The notes under the pieces were generated by a model, which saw nothing but the letters and a program-made list of their open reading frames with translations, made no database searches and had not been told where the DNA came from. Both the position numbers and the translations under genes were made by a program. DNA of 64,000 bases, from NCBI GenBank assembly GCA_027483505.1, contig JAIXUP010000076.1:62001-126000 (forward strand), in the 5' to 3' direction. Shown here one piece after another: positions 16,233 to 62,101 of this stretch. The DNA comes from Hyphomicrobiales bacterium (GTDB taxonomy: Bacteria; Pseudomonadota; Alphaproteobacteria; Rhizobiales; Beijerinckiaceae). Every line of letters begins with the position of its first letter. Positions within the stretch are counted from its first letter, which is position 1.

Positions 16233-16730
16233 ATGGCGAACCAGACCATGGCCACTGACGCAACCAACGGCGCCGCCCAGCAGAACAGCGGACCTTCGCT
16301 CACCGCACTTGTGCAGTATGTGAAGGACATCTCCTTCGAGAACCCGAACGCCCCGCGTGTGTTCGGCAACGCCCAGCAGAACCCGCAAATCCAGCTCCAG
16401 GTCAATGTCGGCGCGACGCAGCTCAGCGAAACCGATGTCGAATCCGTCCTGACGCTCGAGGGCAAGGCCGAGATCGGCCCCGACAAGCTGTTCGTGTTCG
16501 AGCTGTCCTATGCCGGCGTGTTCCGTATCGTCGGCGTGCCCGCCGAACACATGTCGGCGGTCGTGATGATCGAATGCCCGCGTCTTCTGTTCCCCTTCGC
16601 CCGTCAGATCGTGGCAGATGCCGTGCGCAATGGCGGCTTTCCGCCGCTCTACATCGACCCGGTCGACTTCCAGGCCCTGTTCCAGCAGCGCATGGCCGAG
16701 GTGCAGGGGCAGCAGCCCGCTGCCTCTTGA
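16233..16730 (+). CDS. secB: Protein-export chaperone SecB
   Basis: SecB is a cytosolic tetrameric chaperone that keeps preproteins unfolded and delivers them to SecA. The 165-residue protein contains the conserved [13 protein letters not shown] (about 29-41) and the C-terminal [14 protein letters not shown] and [13 protein letters not shown] signatures. A second ATG at 16248 is possible but the first gives a normal N-terminal tail. It is the only plus-strand gene in the first 20 kb. It converges with dnaQ, whose stop is 14 bases away. Confidence 0.96.
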
Positions 16731-18976: not shown

Positions 18977-19620
18977 TCCGCCACAGCGCCGAGGTCGCGC
19001 AGCATTGCCAGCACGGCCAGAAGCGGCAGGCCGAGCACGGTGAAGTGATCGCCCGCCACGGCGCTGAACAGGTGGCTGCCGAGACGCTCGAGTTGATAGC
19101 CGCCAACGGAGGCCGTCGCCTCTTCGGGGCCGGCGTTGAGATAGCGCCCGAGGAAGTCATCGGAAAGAGCACGCATGGTCATCAACGCGGTGGCGCTGCC
19201 CGTGCCCAGGATCGCACCGCCTCTGGCCAAGGCAAAGGCCGAGGTGAGCTGGTGTGTCCTGCCCGACAAGTCCCTCAACTGGCTGATGGCGTCAGCACGG
19301 TTGGCCGGTTTGTGAAAGGCGCGGCCGTTCATTGTCAGTGTCTGGTCTGCGCCCAGAACAACCCTGTCCGGGCGCAGTTCGCTGACATGGAGCGCCTTGG
19401 CGCTGGCCAGCGTCGCAGCGACGGTGTCCGATGGTGCGCCGGCGTCAACTTGCGCCTGCTCGACCGCGCGTTCATCGATCTGTGCCGGTTGGATGTCCAC
19501 GGGCAGCCCCGCCGCAACCAGCATCGCGCGCCGCGTGACGCTGGCGGAGGCCAGCAACAAGGGCTGCTCAGGCAGCCATAGCGTGGCCAGTCGGTCTGGA
19601 GCATGGTGCGTTGGGGACAT
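18973..19620 (-). CDS. Maf/YceF family nucleotide pyrophosphatase
   Basis: This 215-residue Maf-family protein hydrolyses nucleoside triphosphates to monophosphates, with roles in removing modified nucleotides and in septum-related arrest. The N-terminal LLLASASVTRRAML and the central VVLGADQT motif with the catalytic Asp are family signatures. Distinguishing the dTTP/UTP (YhdE) from the m7GTP (YceF) subgroup is not safe by eye. It lies 7 bases after ppsR and overlaps aroE. Confidence 0.9.
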   Translation of the reverse strand: MSPTHHAPDRLATLWLPEQPLLLASASVTRRAMLVAAGLPVDIQPAQIDERAVEQAQVDAGAPSDTVAATLASAKALHVSELRPDRVVLGADQTLTMNGRAFHKPANRADAISQLRDLSGRTHQLTSAFALARGGAILGTGSATALMTMRALSDDFLGRYLNAGPEEATASVGGYQLERLGSHLFSAVAGDHFTVLGLPLLAVLAMLRDLGAVAE

Positions 19621-19627
19621 GGCCAGG

Positions 19628-20455
19628 TCACATCGCGATGAATTTGAGGCGGTGGTCGCGGAGATGCTCGAGGATCGCTGCGGCGGTTTCCTCGATCGAA
19701 CGGCGGGTCACATCGATGACGGGCCAACCCCGGCGCGCGAACAGCTTCCGCGATGTGGCGATCTCGGCCGCGACTGCGTCGTGATCGACATAGGCGGTGT
19801 CGTCATCGGCCTTGAGTGACAGCAGCCGGTTCTGCCGGATCTGCACGATGCGCTCCGGCGCGGCCACGAGCCCGACGATCAGCGGCTTGCGCAGGGTTTC
19901 GAGCTGCGGCGGGGGCGGCACGCCAGGAACAAGCGGAATGTTCGCGGTTTTGACGCCGCGGTTGGCGAGATAGATGCTGGTCGGCGTTTTCGAGGTCCGG
20001 CTGACGCCCAGCAGCACGATGTCGGCACTTTCGAGGTCATCGGTCAGTTGGCCGTCGTCGTGCAGCATGGTGTAATTCATGGCGTCGATGCGCTTGAAAT
20101 ACTCCGCGTTCAGCATGTGCTGCGCGCCGGGGCGGGCCGACGAGGCGGCGCCCAGATAGGATTGGAACAGCGTCAGGATCGGGTTGAGGATCGACATCGT
20201 CGGCGAGCCGATCCGCGTGCAGAAGTTTTCGAGCGTAGCCGCCAGATCCTGATCGACAAGGGTGTAGAGCACGATGCCTGGTGCGGTCTCGATCTCGTTC
20301 AGCACCCGGTCGAGCTGGGTTCGAGACCGCACCAGAGGATAGACATGTTCGATCGCGGACACGCCTTCGTATTGCGCAGCAGCAGCGCGGCTGATGGCGA
20401 TGAGGGTCTCTCCCGTCGCATCCGATACAAGGTGCAGGTGGAAATAGCTGCGCAT
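19628..20455 (-). CDS. ppsR: Pyruvate,phosphate dikinase / PEP synthase regulatory protein (DUF299)
   Basis: This bifunctional serine/threonine kinase and Pi-dependent pyrophosphorylase family controls PPDK or PEP synthase. The N-terminus [18 protein letters not shown] and the P-loop-like [16 protein letters not shown] (near 150) are diagnostic. I chose ATG 20455 (275 residues); the open frame extends to 20518 into the origin region without conservation. This is the RP001-family gene that borders the replication origin in Caulobacter and Rickettsia. It is also first in the run towards dnaQ. Confidence 0.93.
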
Positions 20456-20582
20456 GTGGTGTCCTGCGGGATGGCTGGGTCTGGGCATAACGCTGGGGAC
20501 GGGTGGGGACAAGTGCATGAGGATACAGGCATGACGCGCCCAGGCGGGCGCAAAACCGTCGCCGTCGCCTTCGATCAGAGGC

Positions 20583-20591
20583 TGTGGATGA
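20583..20591 (-). promoter_or_regulatory. Near-consensus DnaA box
   Basis: The plus strand reads TGTGGATGA; its complement TCATCCACA differs from the consensus TTATCCACA at one position. It lies in the predicted origin, about 75 bp from the CtrA box. Alphaproteobacterial origins commonly use such degenerate boxes. Confidence 0.6.
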
Positions 20592-20662
20592 ATTGATGTG
20601 GAGACGGCGGCGTTGTAAGGACTCTGTGGTTGTTGTTGAGATGAGCCCAGATTTCGATCGGG

Positions 20663-20677
20663 TTAACAATAGGTTAA
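20663..20677. promoter_or_regulatory. CtrA-binding box in predicted origin
   Basis: The sequence TTAACAATAGGTTAA is an exact TTAA-N7-TTAA, the consensus for the cell-cycle regulator CtrA. In Caulobacter, CtrA binds such sites in the origin and blocks initiation. TTAA is rare in this GC-rich window, so an exact spaced pair is unlikely by chance. Confidence 0.8.
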
Positions 20678-20839
20678 TGGCAGGATGAGCAATCTGTGTC
20701 GCGACAGGCGCGTTTCGGAGATGGGGGGTTCCTGTGAACCGGCTGTTGATGAATTCGCGCCGGTGTTTGCGAGGGCTCCAGCAGAAAAAACAGAAGACCA
20801 AGTTCAATTCTATCTATTATAGAGGGCTATCGGGGGACA

Positions 20840-21874
20840 ATGATGACAACGACACTGATGCGCCTCTTCGTAGGGGAGACACTGGCAACGCCGCCCATCT
20901 GGCTGATGCGACAGGCCGGGCGCTATCTGCCCGAATACCGCGAAACGAGGGCAAAGGCCGGATCATTCCTCGATTTGTGTTTCAACACCGAACTTGCGAC
21001 GGAAGTCACGCTTCAGCCGATCCGCCGGTTCGGCTTCGATGCATCGATTCTCTTCTCGGATATCCTGGTGGTCCCGCACGCAATGGGCCAGAAGGTCTGG
21101 TTTGAAGAGGGTGAAGGCCCACGACTGGAGCAAATCGAGACAGCGGAGGCTTTGCGCCAGAGGCCGCTGCGGTTTGATCTTGATCGCCTTTCGCCGGTCA
21201 TCCGCACTGTCGAACGGCTGCGGCGTGAGTTGCCGGCCGAGACGACGCTGATCGGGTTCTGCGGCGCGCCCTGGACAGTGGCCAGCTACATGATTGCCGG
21301 CAAGGGCACGGCTGATCAGGCTCCGGCCCGTCTCGTTGCTTATCGCGATCCTGACTTCCTGTCCGCGATGATCGATCAGCTTGTCGATGCCTCGATTGTC
21401 TATCTGAAGGCCCAACTGGCTGCCGGGGCTGAGGTTGTCCAGATTTTCGAAAGCTTCGCGAGTGCGTTGACACCGGACGGGCTGGAACGGTGGTCCATCG
21501 AACCCATCCGCCGCATCATTGCCGGGGTAAAGGCGTCCTATCCTGCTGCGAGGGTCATTGTCTTCGCGCGTGGGGCAGCGGGGGTCTTGGGACAGTATGC
21601 AACGATTACCGGTGCGGATGGGTTCGGGATCGATTGGGGAGCTGACCTTGCGCAGACGGTCAGGCAATTGCCGGAGACGGTTGTCTCTCAGGGTAATCTT
21701 GACCCGCTTGCGCTGGTGGCCGGCGGTGAGGCTCTCGACAGGGGCGTGAAGGCGATGCTGGCTGTCGCCCGCAGCCGGAGGCACATTCTCAATCTTGGTC
21801 ACGGGATCGTGCCTCAGACGCCAATCGCGCATGTCGAACGGATGATGACGCTGGTGCGCGAAGGAGCCGTGTGA
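20840..21874 (+). CDS. hemE: Uroporphyrinogen III decarboxylase HemE
   Basis: HemE converts uroporphyrinogen III to coproporphyrinogen III in haem synthesis. The signatures PPIWLMRQAGRYLPEYR (about 18-34) and, further on, GFCGAPWTVASYM are present. The 344-residue length is standard. A GGGGGA ribosome site precedes ATG 20840; the next codon is also ATG. It is the first plus-strand gene right of the predicted origin, and in Caulobacter the hemE promoter overlaps the origin. Its stop lies six bases before hemJ, indicating co-transcription. Confidence 0.96.
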   Translation: MMTTTLMRLFVGETLATPPIWLMRQAGRYLPEYRETRAKAGSFLDLCFNTELATEVTLQPIRRFGFDASILFSDILVVPHAMGQKVWFEEGEGPRLEQIETAEALRQRPLRFDLDRLSPVIRTVERLRRELPAETTLIGFCGAPWTVASYMIAGKGTADQAPARLVAYRDPDFLSAMIDQLVDASIVYLKAQLAAGAEVVQIFESFASALTPDGLERWSIEPIRRIIAGVKASYPAARVIVFARGAAGVLGQYATITGADGFGIDWGADLAQTVRQLPETVVSQGNLDPLALVAGGEALDRGVKAMLAVARSRRHILNLGHGIVPQTPIAHVERMMTLVREGAV

Positions 21875-25165: not shown

Positions 25166-25181
25166 TGTTTCACGTGAAACA
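25166..25181. promoter_or_regulatory. parS: parS centromere site 1
   Basis: TGTTTCACGTGAAACA is a perfect 16-bp palindrome equal to the consensus parS site bound by ParB. Flanking A and T extend the palindrome to 18 bp. It lies in the mnmE-mnmG gap, 50 bp before the mnmG start. Confidence 0.95.
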
Positions 25182-27127: not shown

Positions 27128-27773
27128 TGTCCGGGGGCGGGCTCTTGTTGCGGCGTCCGCGCATGTTTCACGTGAAACATTGGCGAAACTGGATGTCCTG
27201 ACGGATGAGTTGGCGCGCTGGCAAGCCATCAAGAATCTGGTGGGCCAGTCCACGCTGAACCAGGTCTGGACACGCCACATCGCGGACTCGCTTCAGCTTC
27301 TCGATCACATCGAACAGCCGGGCGCGTGGCTTGACCTGGGGTCCGGGGGCGGCTTTCCGGGGTTGGTCGTCGCGATCGTGCGAACCGCGAGGCGAGATGG
27401 GCCAACGCATCTTGTCGAGAGCAACGGCCGGAAATGCGCATTCCTGCGGCACATCTGCCGTTTGCTCGAGCTTGATGCCGTCGTGCATGAGGGGCGAATC
27501 GAGAAGGTGCTGCCGAAGCTTGAGCAAGCTTTCTGCGTCGTGAGCGCGCGGGCGCTCGCGCCACTGACTGCCCTGATCGGGTGGTCTAACGAGTTGTTGA
27601 GAAGGGGCGCTCTGGGTATCTTTCCAAAGGGACAAGATGTAGAGAATGAACTGCATGAAGCCGCAACATCTTGGGTGTTCACCGCTGATGTGCGACAAAG
27701 CCTGACGGACCGGGACGCGCGGATTGTTCTGGTCAGGATGAGCCAGCCAAAGGTGCAGACGGATGTCACTTGA
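27108..27773 (+). CDS. rsmG: 16S rRNA (guanine527-N7)-methyltransferase RsmG
   Basis: RsmG methylates G527 of 16S rRNA with SAM. The SAM-binding motif [13 protein letters not shown] (near residues 73-85) is diagnostic, and HIADSLQLL precedes it. The start at 27108 overlaps mnmG by 20 bases; the frame opens earlier at 27084. Residues HVSRET at about 19-24 are encoded by a perfect parS site, a known arrangement in Alphaproteobacteria. The stop overlaps the parA start by 11 bases. Confidence 0.95.
27164..27179. promoter_or_regulatory. parS: parS centromere site 2, inside rsmG
   Basis: A second TGTTTCACGTGAAACA, identical to site 1, lies 1998 bp from it in the rsmG coding sequence, where it encodes most of HVSRET. 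parA begins 584 bp downstream. Confidence 0.95.
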
Positions 27774-28599
27774 GCGAGAAATTCTTCTCACAGTTCCTTC
27801 GCGCAGCGGCGCCAGCCGTGTCCTAGCGCTGGCGAACCAGAAGGGCGGCGTCGGCAAGACCACGACGGCGATCAACCTCGGGACGGCGCTCGCGGCCATC
27901 GGCGAACGGGTCCTGATCATTGACCTCGATCCGCAGGGCAATGCATCGACGGGTCTCGGTCTTGACCGCAAGAGCCGCCGGTCTTCAACCTACGACGTGA
28001 TGAGCGCAGAGCGCTCCCTGCCCGAGGTCGTGCATGAGACGGCTGTGCCAAACCTGTTCATCGCGCCATCGACCCTGGATCTGCTCGGCGTCGAACTTGA
28101 GATCGCCTCGCAACGGGATCGGGTGACGCGGCTTCGGAATGCAATCGCGCAATTGCCGACCGGGGAAGATCGATTCGGTTACGTGCTGATCGACTGCCCT
28201 CCCTCGCTGAATTTGCTGACGATCAACGCCTTGACCGCTTCCGACGCGGTTCTCGTGCCGCTGCAATGCGAGTTCTTCGCGCTTGAGGGACTCAGCCAGC
28301 TGATCGCCACCGTCGAGCAGGTGCGGACGACGCTGAATCCCAGGCTGACGATCCAGGGCGTGGTCTTGACCATGTACGACCCGCGCAACAACCTGTCCGG
28401 ACAGGTGATGGCCGATGTCCGCCAGTTCATGGGCGACAAGGTTTATGACACCGTGATTCCGCGCAACGTGCGGGTGTCGGAGGCGCCGTCCTATGGCAAG
28501 CCCGCCTTGCTCTATGATTTGAAATGCGCAGGGTCGCAGGCTTATCTGAAGCTCGCCTCGGAAGTCATTCAGCGGGAGCATCGCCTGAGGGCGAACTGA
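27763..28599 (+). CDS. parA: Chromosome partitioning ATPase ParA
   Basis: ParA is the deviant-Walker ATPase that forms a nucleoid gradient pulling ParB-parS complexes to the new pole. The signature KGGVGKTTTAINLG (about 28-41), VLIIDLDPQGNASTGLG and DCPPSLNLLT are present. The 278-residue length is that of chromosomal ParA (Soj), without the N-terminal HTH of plasmid types. It overlaps rsmG and precedes parB by 55 bases. Two parS sites lie upstream. Confidence 0.96.
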   Translation: MSLEREILLTVPSRSGASRVLALANQKGGVGKTTTAINLGTALAAIGERVLIIDLDPQGNASTGLGLDRKSRRSSTYDVMSAERSLPEVVHETAVPNLFIAPSTLDLLGVELEIASQRDRVTRLRNAIAQLPTGEDRFGYVLIDCPPSLNLLTINALTASDAVLVPLQCEFFALEGLSQLIATVEQVRTTLNPRLTIQGVVLTMYDPRNNLSGQVMADVRQFMGDKVYDTVIPRNVRVSEAPSYGKPALLYDLKCAGSQAYLKLASEVIQREHRLRAN

Positions 28600-28654
28600 C
28601 GTTACCGGTTGTTGAGTGCGATGATGGCGTCGATGCGTGACCAGGAGAACCGTG

Positions 28655-29527
28655 ATGGCAGATGAACCGGGACGATCGCGTCTGGGGCGCGGTCTGGCCG
28701 CCCTGATTGGCGATGTCGGCGACGAAATGGGCGCGGTCGAGCGCGCGCGGGGCCAGCGGCTTGCGCCGATCGAGTTCCTGCGTCCGAACCCGCGCAACCC
28801 GCGCAAAAGCTTTGATGACAGCGATCTCGATGATCTCGCCCAATCGATTCGGGAGCGTGGCATCATTCAGCCGATCCTGGTCCGTTCCGTTCCGGGTCTG
28901 GTGGACGTGTTCGAGATCATCGCCGGGGAACGACGCTGGCGAGCCGCGCAGCGCGCCGGCCTGCATGAGGCCCCGATCATCCTCGTCGAAGCCAGCGACA
29001 AGGATGCGCTCGAGATCGCGATTGTCGAAAATGTCCAGCGTTCGGACCTGAATGCGCTCGACGAGGCGCGGGGCTATGAGCAGTTGTTGAACGAGTTCGG
29101 CTACACCCAACTGGATCTGTCGAAGGTGATCGGCAAGAGCCGCAGCCATGTCGCCAACACATTGCGGCTGATGAAGCTGCCGGACAGCGTCCGCAAGAAG
29201 CTCGCCGATGGTCAGTTGTCCGCTGGCCATGCTCGCGCCCTGCTGGCGCTGCCCGATCCGGAGGCCGTGGCGCGCAAGGTTGTCGCGGAAGGCCTCACGG
29301 TGCGGGATGTCGAGCGCCTTGCGCAGGAGCCTGCTGGCCCGGCTGAGACGTCCGCCAAGGCGAGAGCAGCAAAGGACCCCGACACCAGAGCGCTCGAGCA
29401 GGCCCTGGAGGATGTGCTTGGCCTCAAGGTGGACATCGCGCACAAGAGCCATGGCGGCGGGCAGTTGACGATCCGGTACAAGACACTCGATCAACTCGAA
29501 GGGGTGTGCCGTCGCCTCAAGAGCTGA
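28655..29527 (+). CDS. parB: Chromosome partitioning protein ParB
   Basis: ParB is the parS-binding CTPase clamp protein. The N-terminal box SRLGRGLAALIGD binds ParA; the CTPase domain includes NPRNPRKSF and GERRWRAAQRAG; the HTH is near SKVIGKSRSHVANTLRLMKL; and the C-terminal dimerisation domain ends GVCRRLKS. The start at 28655 (MADEPGRS) has AGGAGA upstream; the frame opens six codons earlier. Length is 290 residues. It converges with holA with a 4-base gap. Confidence 0.96.
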   Translation: MADEPGRSRLGRGLAALIGDVGDEMGAVERARGQRLAPIEFLRPNPRNPRKSFDDSDLDDLAQSIRERGIIQPILVRSVPGLVDVFEIIAGERRWRAAQRAGLHEAPIILVEASDKDALEIAIVENVQRSDLNALDEARGYEQLLNEFGYTQLDLSKVIGKSRSHVANTLRLMKLPDSVRKKLADGQLSAGHARALLALPDPEAVARKVVAEGLTVRDVERLAQEPAGPAETSAKARAAKDPDTRALEQALEDVLGLKVDIAHKSHGGGQLTIRYKTLDQLEGVCRRLKS

Positions 29528-29531
29528 CGGT

Positions 29532-30557
29532 TCACTCGCGGGCGCCGGCCCTGGTGAGGTTCCACAGGGCGCGCGCCACCAGCTCTTCCGACAGGGCCGG
29601 ATGCCGGCGGGCCTGGATCATGGCGCTTTGGAGCGTCCCCAGCGCCCTGATCAGGGTCTCGACCGACCATCGTCCGAGCGCGCTTTCGATGGCGGGACTT
29701 CGTGTGAACGACATTCCCCGCATGCCGGCCACCACCTCGGCCAAGGGCGTGCGATCTTGCTCCAGACTGCGCCGCGCGGCCAGAAGAGCCAGCCCGTGCC
29801 GGACTGCAAAGCCCAGAAGCACCACAGGGTCCTCGCCTGCCAGCGTGAGGCGTTTCAGCGAGCGGTCCATGCGCTCCATGGACCCGGTGAACAGCCCGTC
29901 CACGACATCATCGACATCACGCGCTGCGGCGTCGCCGACGATCATGTCGACATCGGCCACCTCGATTCGTGCCTTGCCCATGCAATAGGCCGCAAGCTTC
30001 TCGATCTCGCGGCGCGATAGCTGCCGATCTGCCCCAAGCCGTGATAAAAGCAAGGTTCTCGCATCTCGTTCGATCGATAAGCCATGATCTTGCAAAATTG
30101 GATCAATCAATGCATCAAGCGTGCGCCCCGTATCAGCATAGCACGGCACTGCAAGCCCGGCCTTCGCCCGCTCCACCATCACCCGGAGAGCGTGGTTGCG
30201 GGCCAGATCGCCGCCCTCGAGCACGATCAGCGCATCAACGGGCGGCGCCGCGAGCAGCGGTTCGACCGCAACCGTCAGCGATCGGGAGGTCGATGAAACC
30301 CGGATGGCGCGCTGACCGCCGAACAACCCGATCGTGTTGGCTTCGTCCACCAGCCTCATCGGGTCGGCGGCGACATCCGACCCGTCAAGCCGGACCAGCT
30401 GGAACGGATCAGCGCCGCCTGCGACATGCTGATTCGCCAGTGCCTCGGCGCGCTCGCTGACAAGGCCGTGATCCGGGCCGTAGATCAGGACCACACGGAT
30501 ATCCCTGCCGAGCGAACGGAGCGCGCGGTCGGCCTCGTGAGCCTTGACGGCAACCAT
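29532..30557 (-). CDS. holA: DNA polymerase III delta subunit HolA
   Basis: HolA is the clamp-loader delta subunit that opens the beta clamp. The 341-residue protein shows the family pattern VLIYGPDHGLVSERAEAL near the N-terminus, without a functional P-loop, and the central SRREIEKLAAY segment. It lies six bases downstream of lptE, a common bacterial pairing, with leuS further upstream. The whole leuS-lptE-holA string is conserved. Confidence 0.92.
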   Translation of the reverse strand: MVAVKAHEADRALRSLGRDIRVVLIYGPDHGLVSERAEALANQHVAGGADPFQLVRLDGSDVAADPMRLVDEANTIGLFGGQRAIRVSSTSRSLTVAVEPLLAAPPVDALIVLEGGDLARNHALRVMVERAKAGLAVPCYADTGRTLDALIDPILQDHGLSIERDARTLLLSRLGADRQLSRREIEKLAAYCMGKARIEVADVDMIVGDAAARDVDDVVDGLFTGSMERMDRSLKRLTLAGEDPVVLLGFAVRHGLALLAARRSLEQDRTPLAEVVAGMRGMSFTRSPAIESALGRWSVETLIRALGTLQSAMIQARRHPALSEELVARALWNLTRAGARE

Positions 30558-41033: not shown

Positions 41034-41128
41034 GGTTTGTGGCCCAGTGTTGAGCGCCATGCGGTCCACAAGGCGCGCAGCCCCCGCAAGCGAGGCCGAC
41101 AACTCTGTGGACAGTAGCGAAAGGCGGG

Positions 41129-41143
41129 TTAAGGCCCGCTTAA
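41129..41143. promoter_or_regulatory. CtrA-binding box upstream of ftsK
   Basis: TTAAGGCCCGCTTAA is an exact TTAA-N7-TTAA. It lies 96 bp upstream of the ftsK start, between ftsK and the amt terminator. It is the second exact CtrA box in the window, the first being in the predicted origin, and implies cell-cycle control of ftsK. Confidence 0.75.
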
Positions 41144-41180
41144 CCCTGTCGTCAGCCTGACGTGTGGGAGTGCCGTTGAC

Positions 41181-59484: not shown

Positions 59485-60258
59485 TCAGCCCGGCCAGCCG
59501 CAGGCGGTGAGGCGCCCGCGCATGTGGGCGGGCGCGGGGGCCTCGACTTGAACCGGGGGCCTGTTCGGATGGAGCGGAATGGTGATCGCGCGGGCATGCA
59601 GATGCAGCCCCGGCCCGCCGAAGCGCGGACCCAGGCCATAGACGGGATCACCGAGAATCGGCCAGCCGGAGGCCTGGCAGTGGACGCGGAGCTGATGGGT
59701 GCGTCCGGTCAGCGGTTCAAGCTCAAGCCAGGTCAGCGAGCGGTCCTCCGCGCGGCCAAGGACCGTCCAGCGCGTCGCGGATGGCAGGCCGTTCGCATCG
59801 ACCTTCATCCACCAGCCGCGGGCAGGGTCGAGCTTGCCGAGCGGCAGGTCGATGCGTCCGGCATCTTCCGCGGGCGATCCTTCGACGATGGCCCAATAGG
59901 TCTTCGCGATCGCCCCGGCCTTGAAAAGGTCGCCGAGCCGGGTCAGGGCCTGACGGTGGCGCCCGAGGACCAGACAGCCCGAGGTATCGCGGTCCAGCCG
60001 GTGCGCCAGTTCCGGCGGTCTGGGCAGGCCAAAGCGCAGCGCGGGAAAGTAGCGGTCGAGCGGCACGTCGGCATGGCCGCCCGTCTTTCTTGCGGCGTTG
60101 AGCTTGCTTTGCGCGCTCTCAGGGCCCTTGTGAACCGGCATTCCCGCCGGCTTGTCGATCACAAGCATCATCGCGTCGCGATGAAGCACGCGCGCCAGCA
60201 TGTCCGCCTCTGTCGGCGGCGTCGCGGGCTGTTGCGCGATGGTGTCTTTCGGTGTCAT
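59485..60258 (-). CDS. RluA-family RNA pseudouridine synthase
   Basis: This 257-residue pseudouridine synthase has the catalytic motif HRLDRDTSGCLVLGR with the nucleophilic Asp, the start LVIDKPAGMPVHKGP and the later LTGRTHQLRVHC. It has no S4 domain. The target (23S rRNA or tRNA) is not assignable. ATG 60258 is chosen; frames to 60501 run into the ftsY 5' region. It is divergent from ftsY by 65 bases. Confidence 0.9.
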   Translation of the reverse strand: MTPKDTIAQQPATPPTEADMLARVLHRDAMMLVIDKPAGMPVHKGPESAQSKLNAARKTGGHADVPLDRYFPALRFGLPRPPELAHRLDRDTSGCLVLGRHRQALTRLGDLFKAGAIAKTYWAIVEGSPAEDAGRIDLPLGKLDPARGWWMKVDANGLPSATRWTVLGRAEDRSLTWLELEPLTGRTHQLRVHCQASGWPILGDPVYGLGPRFGGPGLHLHARAITIPLHPNRPPVQVEAPAPAHMRGRLTACGWPG

Positions 60259-60323
60259 GCGGAACCGGGTAACGACAGTGAAGGCCTGCCGCAAGGCTGG
60301 CAGCGTCAGGATGCAGTGCGCCG

Positions 60324-61481
60324 ATGAGCGATGAGACCAAGAAGCCGGGCTTTCTGGCCCGTCTGTTCGGGCGCGGGGACAAGCCCCCGCCAAACCCGCA
60401 GCCGGAACCGGACGTCGCCCTGCCGTTGCTTCCGGAGCCGTCAGGAGTCGCCGCGCCGTCCGCTCCTGACATCCAGGCGCCCCGGAGCGAGAGCCTGCCA
60501 CCGCCTGCGGTCTTGCCCGTGGCGCGCGAGGCGGCGGCGTCTCCCGCCCAGCCGAAGAAGAGCTGGTGGACCCGCCTCAGCGAGGGGTTGTCCCGCACGT
60601 CATCCCAGCTGACAAGCGGAATCACCGACCTTTTCACCAAGCGCAAACTCGATGCGGCGACCCTTGATGATCTGGAAGACATCCTGATCCAGGCTGATCT
60701 CGGCGTCGACACGGCCGCACGCGTCGCCAAAGTGGTCGGATCAAGCCGCTACGAGAAGGGCATCAGCGGCGACGAGGTCAGGGCGATCCTGGCGCGGGAA
60801 GTCGAGGACATCCTCGCGCCCGTGGCGAAGCCGCTGGTTGTGGACAGCGCCCAACGGCCTTTCGTGCTCCTGATGGTCGGCGTCAACGGTTCGGGCAAGA
60901 CGACCACCATCGGCAAGCTGGCCGCAAAGTTCCGGTCCGAGGGACGTTCGGTGATGCTGGCGGCGGGCGACACGTTCCGCGCTGCGGCGATCGAACAGCT
61001 CAAGGTCTGGGGTGAGCGGACCGGCGCGGAGGTGGTGGCGCGCGAGCAAGGCGCCGACGCGGCCGGGCTCGCCTTCGATGCGCTGACCCAGGCGCGGGCG
61101 GCCGGAACCGACGTGCTCCTCGTCGACACGGCGGGGCGGCTGCAGAACAAGACCGAACTGATGGCGGAGCTTGCCAAGGTCGTCCGCGTCCTGCGCAAGG
61201 TCGACGCCTCGGCGCCGCATGCGGTGCTGCTCGTGCTGGATGCGACGGTCGGCCAGAATGCGCTGGCGCAGGTCGAGGTCTTCCGCGACGTGGCCGGGGT
61301 GACGGGGCTGGTGATGACCAAGCTCGACGGCACGGCGCGCGGCGGCATCCTGGTGTCGCTCGCCTCGAAATTCGGCCTGCCGGTGCATTTCATCGGGGTC
61401 GGCGAGGCCGTCGACGATCTCGAGCCCTTCGATGCGGGCGATTTCGCCCGGGCCGTGGCGGGACTGGAGAGGGGACCATGA
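60324..61481 (+). CDS. ftsY: Signal recognition particle receptor FtsY
   Basis: FtsY is the membrane-associated SRP receptor GTPase. The 385-residue protein has an acidic/proline-rich A region (about 1-85), an N domain and a G domain. The G domain has [31 protein letters not shown] and [10 protein letters not shown]. It overlaps yciB by four bases, the common alphaproteobacterial ftsY-yciB order. Confidence 0.96.
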
Positions 61482-62101
61482 CGGACAAGGCGCGATCCGC
61501 ACCGGATCATCAGGTCAACCCGCTGCTTAAGCTTGGCCTTGAATTCGGGCCGCTGGCGATCTTCTTCTTCGCCAACTCCTATGGCGACCGCTGGTTCGGC
61601 GTCAGCAGCGAGCAGCGCATCTTCGTGGCGACGGGCATCTTCATGGCGGCGTCGCTTGCGTCGCTCGTGCTGTCGAAGATCCTGCTCAACCATCTGCCAC
61701 GCATGGCGCTGATCAATGCGGTGGTGGTGACCGTGTTCGGCGGCTTGACGCTGGCCCTGCACGACGAACTGTTCATCAAACTCAAGCCAACCATCGTCAA
61801 TACCCTGTTCGGCTGCGTGCTGCTGGGCGGCCTGGCGCTGGGCCGTCCGCTGTTACCCTATGTGCTCGACAGCGTGATGAGCCTGACCGACGAGGGCTGG
61901 CGCAAGCTGACCTTCCGCTGGGGGCTGTTCTTCTTCGTGCTCGCCACCGTCAACGAGGTTGTCTGGCGGAATTTCTCGACCGACTTCTGGGTCGGCTTCA
62001 AGGTCTGGGGAATCATGCCGCTGACGGTCGCCTTCGCGCTCAGCCAGACGCCGCTGATCCTGAAACACGAGGTCAAGGACGAGGACCACCAGCCGGGCTG
62101 A
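61478..62101 (+). CDS. yciB: Inner-membrane septation protein YciB/IspZ
   Basis: This 207-residue inner-membrane protein has about five helices. The family pattern [15 protein letters not shown] is near residues 25-39, and [21 protein letters not shown] and [13 protein letters not shown] are conserved. It has roles in septation and envelope integrity. Its ATG overlaps the ftsY stop. Confidence 0.92.

Follow-up and report, generated by a model that had tools for sequence, protein, structure and literature searches.

Sinorhizobium meliloti, which like the bacterium analysed here belongs to the order Hyphomicrobiales, is one of several species whose chromosomal origins can be set beside the present locus, the others being Caulobacter crescentus, Brucella, and the Rickettsia prowazekii/Wolbachia group, for which Brassinga 2002 is reportedly a further reference. 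In the account given in PMC1914354, the Caulobacter origin (Cori) lies between hemE and COG1806/CC0001 and contains an AT-rich segment; its DnaA sites depart from consensus and are accompanied by CtrA sites of the form TTAA-N7-TTAA (PMC1914354, PMC4468827). Among these DnaA sites, weak G and W boxes as well as competition between DnaA and CtrA have been described (PMC4468827, PMC4588119), and weak DnaA boxes are thus not strange in this class. The gene hemE is also a boundary gene of the R. prowazekii and Wolbachia-group origins, for which DnaA sites and IHF sites are reported, together with CtrA sites in most, their number ranging from 0 to 7 by species (Ioannidis 2007, PMC1914354). As to S. 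meliloti, the relevant passages of PMC4433202 report an origin without CtrA motifs or CtrA binding, and Brucella CtrA is reported in PMC2877005 not to bind the Brucella origin. A literature search, with most subscription journals outside its reach, yielded no account of CtrA at the origin in the hyphomicrobial branch considered here.

The window analysed here, a stretch of 64,000 nucleotides, sits in a contig of 136,153 bp, one of 87 in a 3.9-Mb assembly, and contains a divergent intergenic gap of 384 bp (20456-20839, no strand assigned) which, judged from its sequence, is very probably the chromosomal replication origin (oriC). Coordinates and family matches bear out the borders given in the original prediction, namely ppsR (COG1806/RP001-type; 19628-20455, minus strand; NF003742, 342 bits, cut-off 225) and hemE (20840-21874, plus strand; TIGR01464, 385.4 bits, cut-off 302.95), and the gene strand switches beside the gap, as had been stated. 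The parallel drawn at that time with the Caulobacter origin, between hemE and an RP001-type gene, also holds, in that the flanks match those of the mapped origin, and also those of the Rickettsia origin, described in PMC1914354. To the left of the gap lie three leftward genes, a Maf-like gene (family match below the cut-off) followed by aroE and coaE, which were named by reading their translations; a plus-strand frame is found on this side at 16233-16730. To the right, hemE, hemJ, rho, mnmE, mnmG, rsmG, a parA-like gene, and parB all run rightward up to 29527, after which the minus strand resumes, the next long frame being at 29532-30557. The nearest named relatives (L002-L005, hemE identity 81-97%) are Hyphomicrobiales metagenome assemblies from lakes and ponds; a probable origin has now been pinned for this hyphomicrobial lineage, and a list of candidate sites within the gap is available for testing.

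The claim of a nearby parABS system stands as well, with all its elements to the right of the gap. Two exact copies of TTTCACGTGAAA, which we take to be the parS consensus, are located at 25168-25179 and 27166-27177 (no strand assigned), 4.3 and 6.3 kb from the gap. They are followed by parB (28637-29527, plus strand; TIGR00180, 184.8 bits, cut-off 58.45) and, beside it, by a gene for a ParA-type ATPase (27763-28599, plus strand), which is named from this position and from matches to ParA/RepA-type families that all fall below their cut-offs (best 110 bits).

The gap holds six matches over 5 bits to a DnaA matrix trained on 83 sites from relatives with the window's clade left out; all six are degenerate, and all lie on the minus strand. 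When the 127,984 nine-mers of the window are ranked with this matrix, box 2 (TCATCCACA, 20583-20591) comes fourth and box 1 (TTGTCCCCA, 20504-20512) ninth, followed by the degenerate box 3 (TCATCAACA, 20744-20752, beside the AT-rich segment) at rank 40 and by weak DnaA-like sites at ranks 43 (GTCTCCACA, 20597-20605), 46 (TTATGCCCA, 20482-20490), and 65 (GTATCCTCA, 20518-20526). Boxes 1 and 3 were missed by the original prediction, which had named a one-mismatch DnaA box, recovered here as box 2 (one mismatch from TTATCCACA), and two weaker TGTGG motifs in the same orientation, which indeed start at 20597 and 20625. The window contains four one-mismatch TTATCCACA sites against 2.57 expected, so that box 2 alone is not above chance, and a lone box of this kind was rejected as evidence for an origin; given the comparison with relatives described below, box 2 is no longer judged as such a lone chance-level site. 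Box 1 has the weak sites at 20482 and 20518 on either side, and the three may form a small array towards ppsR within the gap.

Together, the six sites constitute the densest same-strand DnaA-like cluster read in the 136-kb contig, of which all but 2 kb (60001-62000) was scanned. No other place read has six same-strand matches over 5 bits, and each of five thresholds (2 to 6.5 bits) leaves the same-strand count of the gap unmatched. With stricter thresholds, the gap retains two matches and is tied by three other places (8 bits) or by one (10 bits). Five same-strand matches over 5 bits occur at one other place in the contig. This place lies approx. 2 kb from the start of the contig (C75) and approx. 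60 kb to the left of the window. At the position of box 1 in a 16-row alignment, 14 of the 15 other rows have TGTGGA-type sites; the window and L003 carry TGGGGACAA (minus-strand reading TTGTCCCCA), and within the close group TTGTCCACA is the form in three of the five relatives and TTGTCCCCA in the other two. Across the six genomes of this group (window included), eight of nine columns are invariant in box 1 and also in box 2, compared with 31% over the gap; in box 3, the figure is four of nine. In most dereplicated relatives (78 of 94; 3.9 expected from mononucleotide shuffles), TGTGGA occurs within the final 160 bp of the gap, unlike in the window with its degenerate box 3.

The exact DnaA consensus TTATCCACA was found neither in the gap nor anywhere in the 87-contig assembly, and the genome-wide count of 0 stands against 12 for the reversed pattern, which is an imperfect control. 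Among the 101 genomes searched, TTATCCACA is wholly missing from two, the other being G026, a member of the window's close group; two further members, G031 and G034, have five and two copies. In same-genus genomes, the sequence is rare (0 to 9 copies) and usually falls below the reversed-pattern control, G031 being an exception (five copies, control 4), and in several other families of the order the counts are near that control. Absence of TTATCCACA as a special trait was rejected, zero being a mild extreme of the same-genus range. Altered DnaA specificity is not indicated either: the genome encodes one full-length DnaA (contig C42), the C-terminal domain of which carries GRDHTTV, presumably the reader of the DnaA box, as in its relatives (28 of 30 aligned proteins, the window's included, the exceptions being L130 with GRDHSTV and L126 with NRDHTTV). 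An origin linked to dnaA was also rejected: across the 4.4 kb of the dnaA locus, no DnaA-like site scores above 7 bits.

The AT-rich sequence noted earlier before hemE coincides with the 50-bp segment of lowest stability in the window (20782-20831, no strand assigned; rank 1 of 63,951) and is a candidate unwinding element; on an 80-bp scale, a region near 53.2 kb is less stable, and the best stretch of the gap reaches only rank 107 of 63,921. The gap contains a single GANTC (CcrM-type) site at 20620-20624 (no strand assigned), and neither of its strands has a match to the IHF consensus WATCAN5WTR. A minimum of cumulative GC skew at the locus had been proposed as a check on the complete chromosome; over the 136-kb contig, to which this analysis applies, there is a change of slope and no strict minimum. 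The cumulative G-C count is nearly flat or rises slowly to approx. 80 kb of the contig and then climbs steeply, with a change point at approx. window position 19000, some 1.5 kb from the gap (block-permutation p 0.002); the skew to the left of the gap is approx. zero, not negative, and its sign does not change at this point. Across complete relatives, the picture is mixed. In five genomes with chromosome-length contigs (G010, G012, G055, Rhizobiales bacterium YIM 77505 (G243), and Rhodoblastus sp. SSC7 (G244)), each sampled as 20 stretches of 20 kb, the half downstream of hemE is the more G-rich in four. When gene orientation is also fitted, G010, G243, and G244 place the best-fitting origin at most 7.5% of the chromosome away from hemE; the offset is 12.5-15% in G055 and 20% in G012, the skew of which gives no support for an origin at hemE; in G055 and G244, both chromosome halves are positive in skew.

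The exact CtrA box (TTAA-N7-TTAA) that had been read in the gap is indeed present as TTAACAATAGGTTAA at 20663-20677 on the plus strand, between boxes 2 and 3. With up to one mismatch allowed, this pattern is matched twice in the window, exactly in both cases; 0.42 matches are expected, and a count of two is attained in 5 of 100 shuffles. A CtrA protein is encoded on C81 (426.8 bits, family cut-off 350). The genome as a whole has TTAA-N7-TTAAC at 12 places (15 matches; reversed control 5), and a CtrA box alone is therefore no mark of an origin. Within the window, a further full CtrA site is located at 41128-41144 (both strands). One of the 12 places is upstream of dnaA, where a full site on both strands (C42:152069-152085) precedes the dnaA match (C42:150350-151714, minus strand) by approx. 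355-371 bp; judging from this position, CtrA may also act on dnaA transcription. Within the gap, the CtrA box is 80 bp from box 2, which is the figure under the rule applied to the relatives (first regular box), and 159 bp from box 1, a spacing that is valid only when the degenerate box 1 is counted. In the closest group, the CtrA box is missing from three of six genomes, in which boxes 1 and 2 are kept, and 7 of its 15 columns are invariant.

The comparison with relatives covered 110 loci (80 + 30), of which 106 yield a ppsR-hemE gap; L005 and L070 end too soon, and ppsR is missing from the flank of L057 and L064. The 106 include the window's own locus (L082) and the identical pair L004 and L083; with the window's clade left out (L001-L004, L082, and L083), 101 gaps remain. 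An exact TTAA-N7-TTAA is present in 87 of these (one copy in 57, two in 30), the mean of dinucleotide shuffles being 0.58. With a DnaA-like motif set picked after viewing the gap sequences, a minus-strand box is found in 83 gaps (shuffle mean 1.24) and a plus-strand box in three (shuffle mean 0.79). It should be noted that common ancestry raises such counts; once near-duplicates are removed, 94 of the 101 gaps remain, and the CtrA box is then counted in 80 and the minus-strand box in 76. In the 68 dereplicated gaps that have both, the first box is 145-165 bp from the first CtrA site in 46, and the spacing is exactly 148, 149, or 162 bp in 39; a spacing of 49-50 bp occurs in five, and the order is reversed in four. 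For other families of the order (24, of which 22 were read and 17 have the gap in the stretch read), the CtrA box is present in 6 of 17, L090 and L098 from this set being also counted within the 101. At the level of the class, the 29 loci compared were not drawn at random but represent the top scorers among 119 other matching genomes; the gap is found in 28 of these 29 and the CtrA box in 2 of the 28, and L229 and L230, which belong to the window's own family, are both without it. The CtrA box is patchy in its occurrence, from 87/101 near relatives through 6/17 for the families to 2/28 among those best-scoring class-level loci, and these genomes provide a natural series in which to study at what point replication came under direct CtrA control or escaped from it.

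Since the flanking genes, the conserved motifs, the same-strand cluster of DnaA-like sites, the least stable segment, the parS-type sites, and the nearby skew change point agree, the gap is predicted to be oriC, and the main claim of the original prediction is thereby supported. Several observations count against it, namely the missing exact TTATCCACA and IHF matches, the five-match place elsewhere in the contig and the ties at 8 and 10 bits, the 80-bp melting rank, the 80-bp spacing between box 2 and the CtrA box, the loss of that box from half of the closest genomes, the near-zero skew to the left of the gap, and the skew patterns of G012, G055, and G244. The weakness of the GC-skew support, along with the spread of TTAA-N7-TTAAC over 12 places of which one precedes dnaA, would fit a divergent promoter and nothing more, at which CtrA and DnaA sites regulate ppsR and hemE while oriC lies elsewhere. 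However, such an arrangement is hard to reconcile with six same-strand DnaA-like sites in the densest cluster read in the contig, with the window's least stable 50 bp adjoining that cluster, with parS-type sites, parB, and a skew change point in the neighbourhood, and with the mapping of the Caulobacter origin to the equivalent gap (PMC1914354), and we consider it very improbable.

If the gap is oriC, DnaA would bind several weak same-facing boxes (20504, 20583, and 20744, with their weaker satellites), the sites and their conservation being what is observed, and would then melt the AT-rich sequence at 20782-20831 beside hemE, where the helicase would be loaded. ParB and ParA would move the new origin by way of the parS-type sites to its right. 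Phosphorylated CtrA, from its box between boxes 2 and 3, might be in competition with DnaA, or might repress a promoter that reads into hemE, and in this manner hold back initiation for part of the cell cycle; the chances that CtrA controls initiation directly appear evenly balanced. It is also conceivable, with a probability not far below even, that the gap is oriC and yet its CtrA box is no origin control site, serving hemE transcription only or persisting as a relic. The reports on the S. meliloti origin (no CtrA motifs or CtrA binding; PMC4433202) and on Brucella CtrA (no binding to the origin; PMC2877005) point in this direction, as does the loss of the box from three of the six closest genomes that retain boxes 1 and 2, whereas its presence in 87 of 101 relatives and, for 39 of the 68 dereplicated gaps, its exact spacing from a DnaA-like box count against this view. 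A fuller version of the origin reading, which we put forward tentatively and at somewhat less than even chances, is that in this hyphomicrobial branch, in contrast to the Sinorhizobium and Brucella origins, CtrA directly controls initiation via one or two operators placed most often at 148-163 bp from a DnaA box, and that the window's species, with no consensus DnaA box in its assembly, initiates on weak DnaA sites alone.

Within the context of its class, the locus is unremarkable and follows an origin layout that is already known. It shares with Cori the flanking genes, an AT-rich segment, non-consensus DnaA sites, and the TTAA-N7-TTAA pattern; however, five CtrA sites and an IHF site are described for Cori, whereas the gap has one exact CtrA site (imperfect half sites uncounted) and no IHF consensus match. 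Unlike Cori with its G boxes, the gap also has no exact TGATCCACA, which we take to be the letters of the Caulobacter G box. With the described R. prowazekii and Wolbachia-group origins it has in common hemE as a boundary gene, DnaA sites, and, for most of them, CtrA sites, and it differs from them in the IHF sites reported there. The S. meliloti origin belongs to the same order and is reported without CtrA motifs or binding, unlike the gap with its exact CtrA box. In this respect, the sequences suggest a modest twist on the known layout: a candidate CtrA site appears to have been kept in most of this branch, unlike in some of its well-studied relatives.
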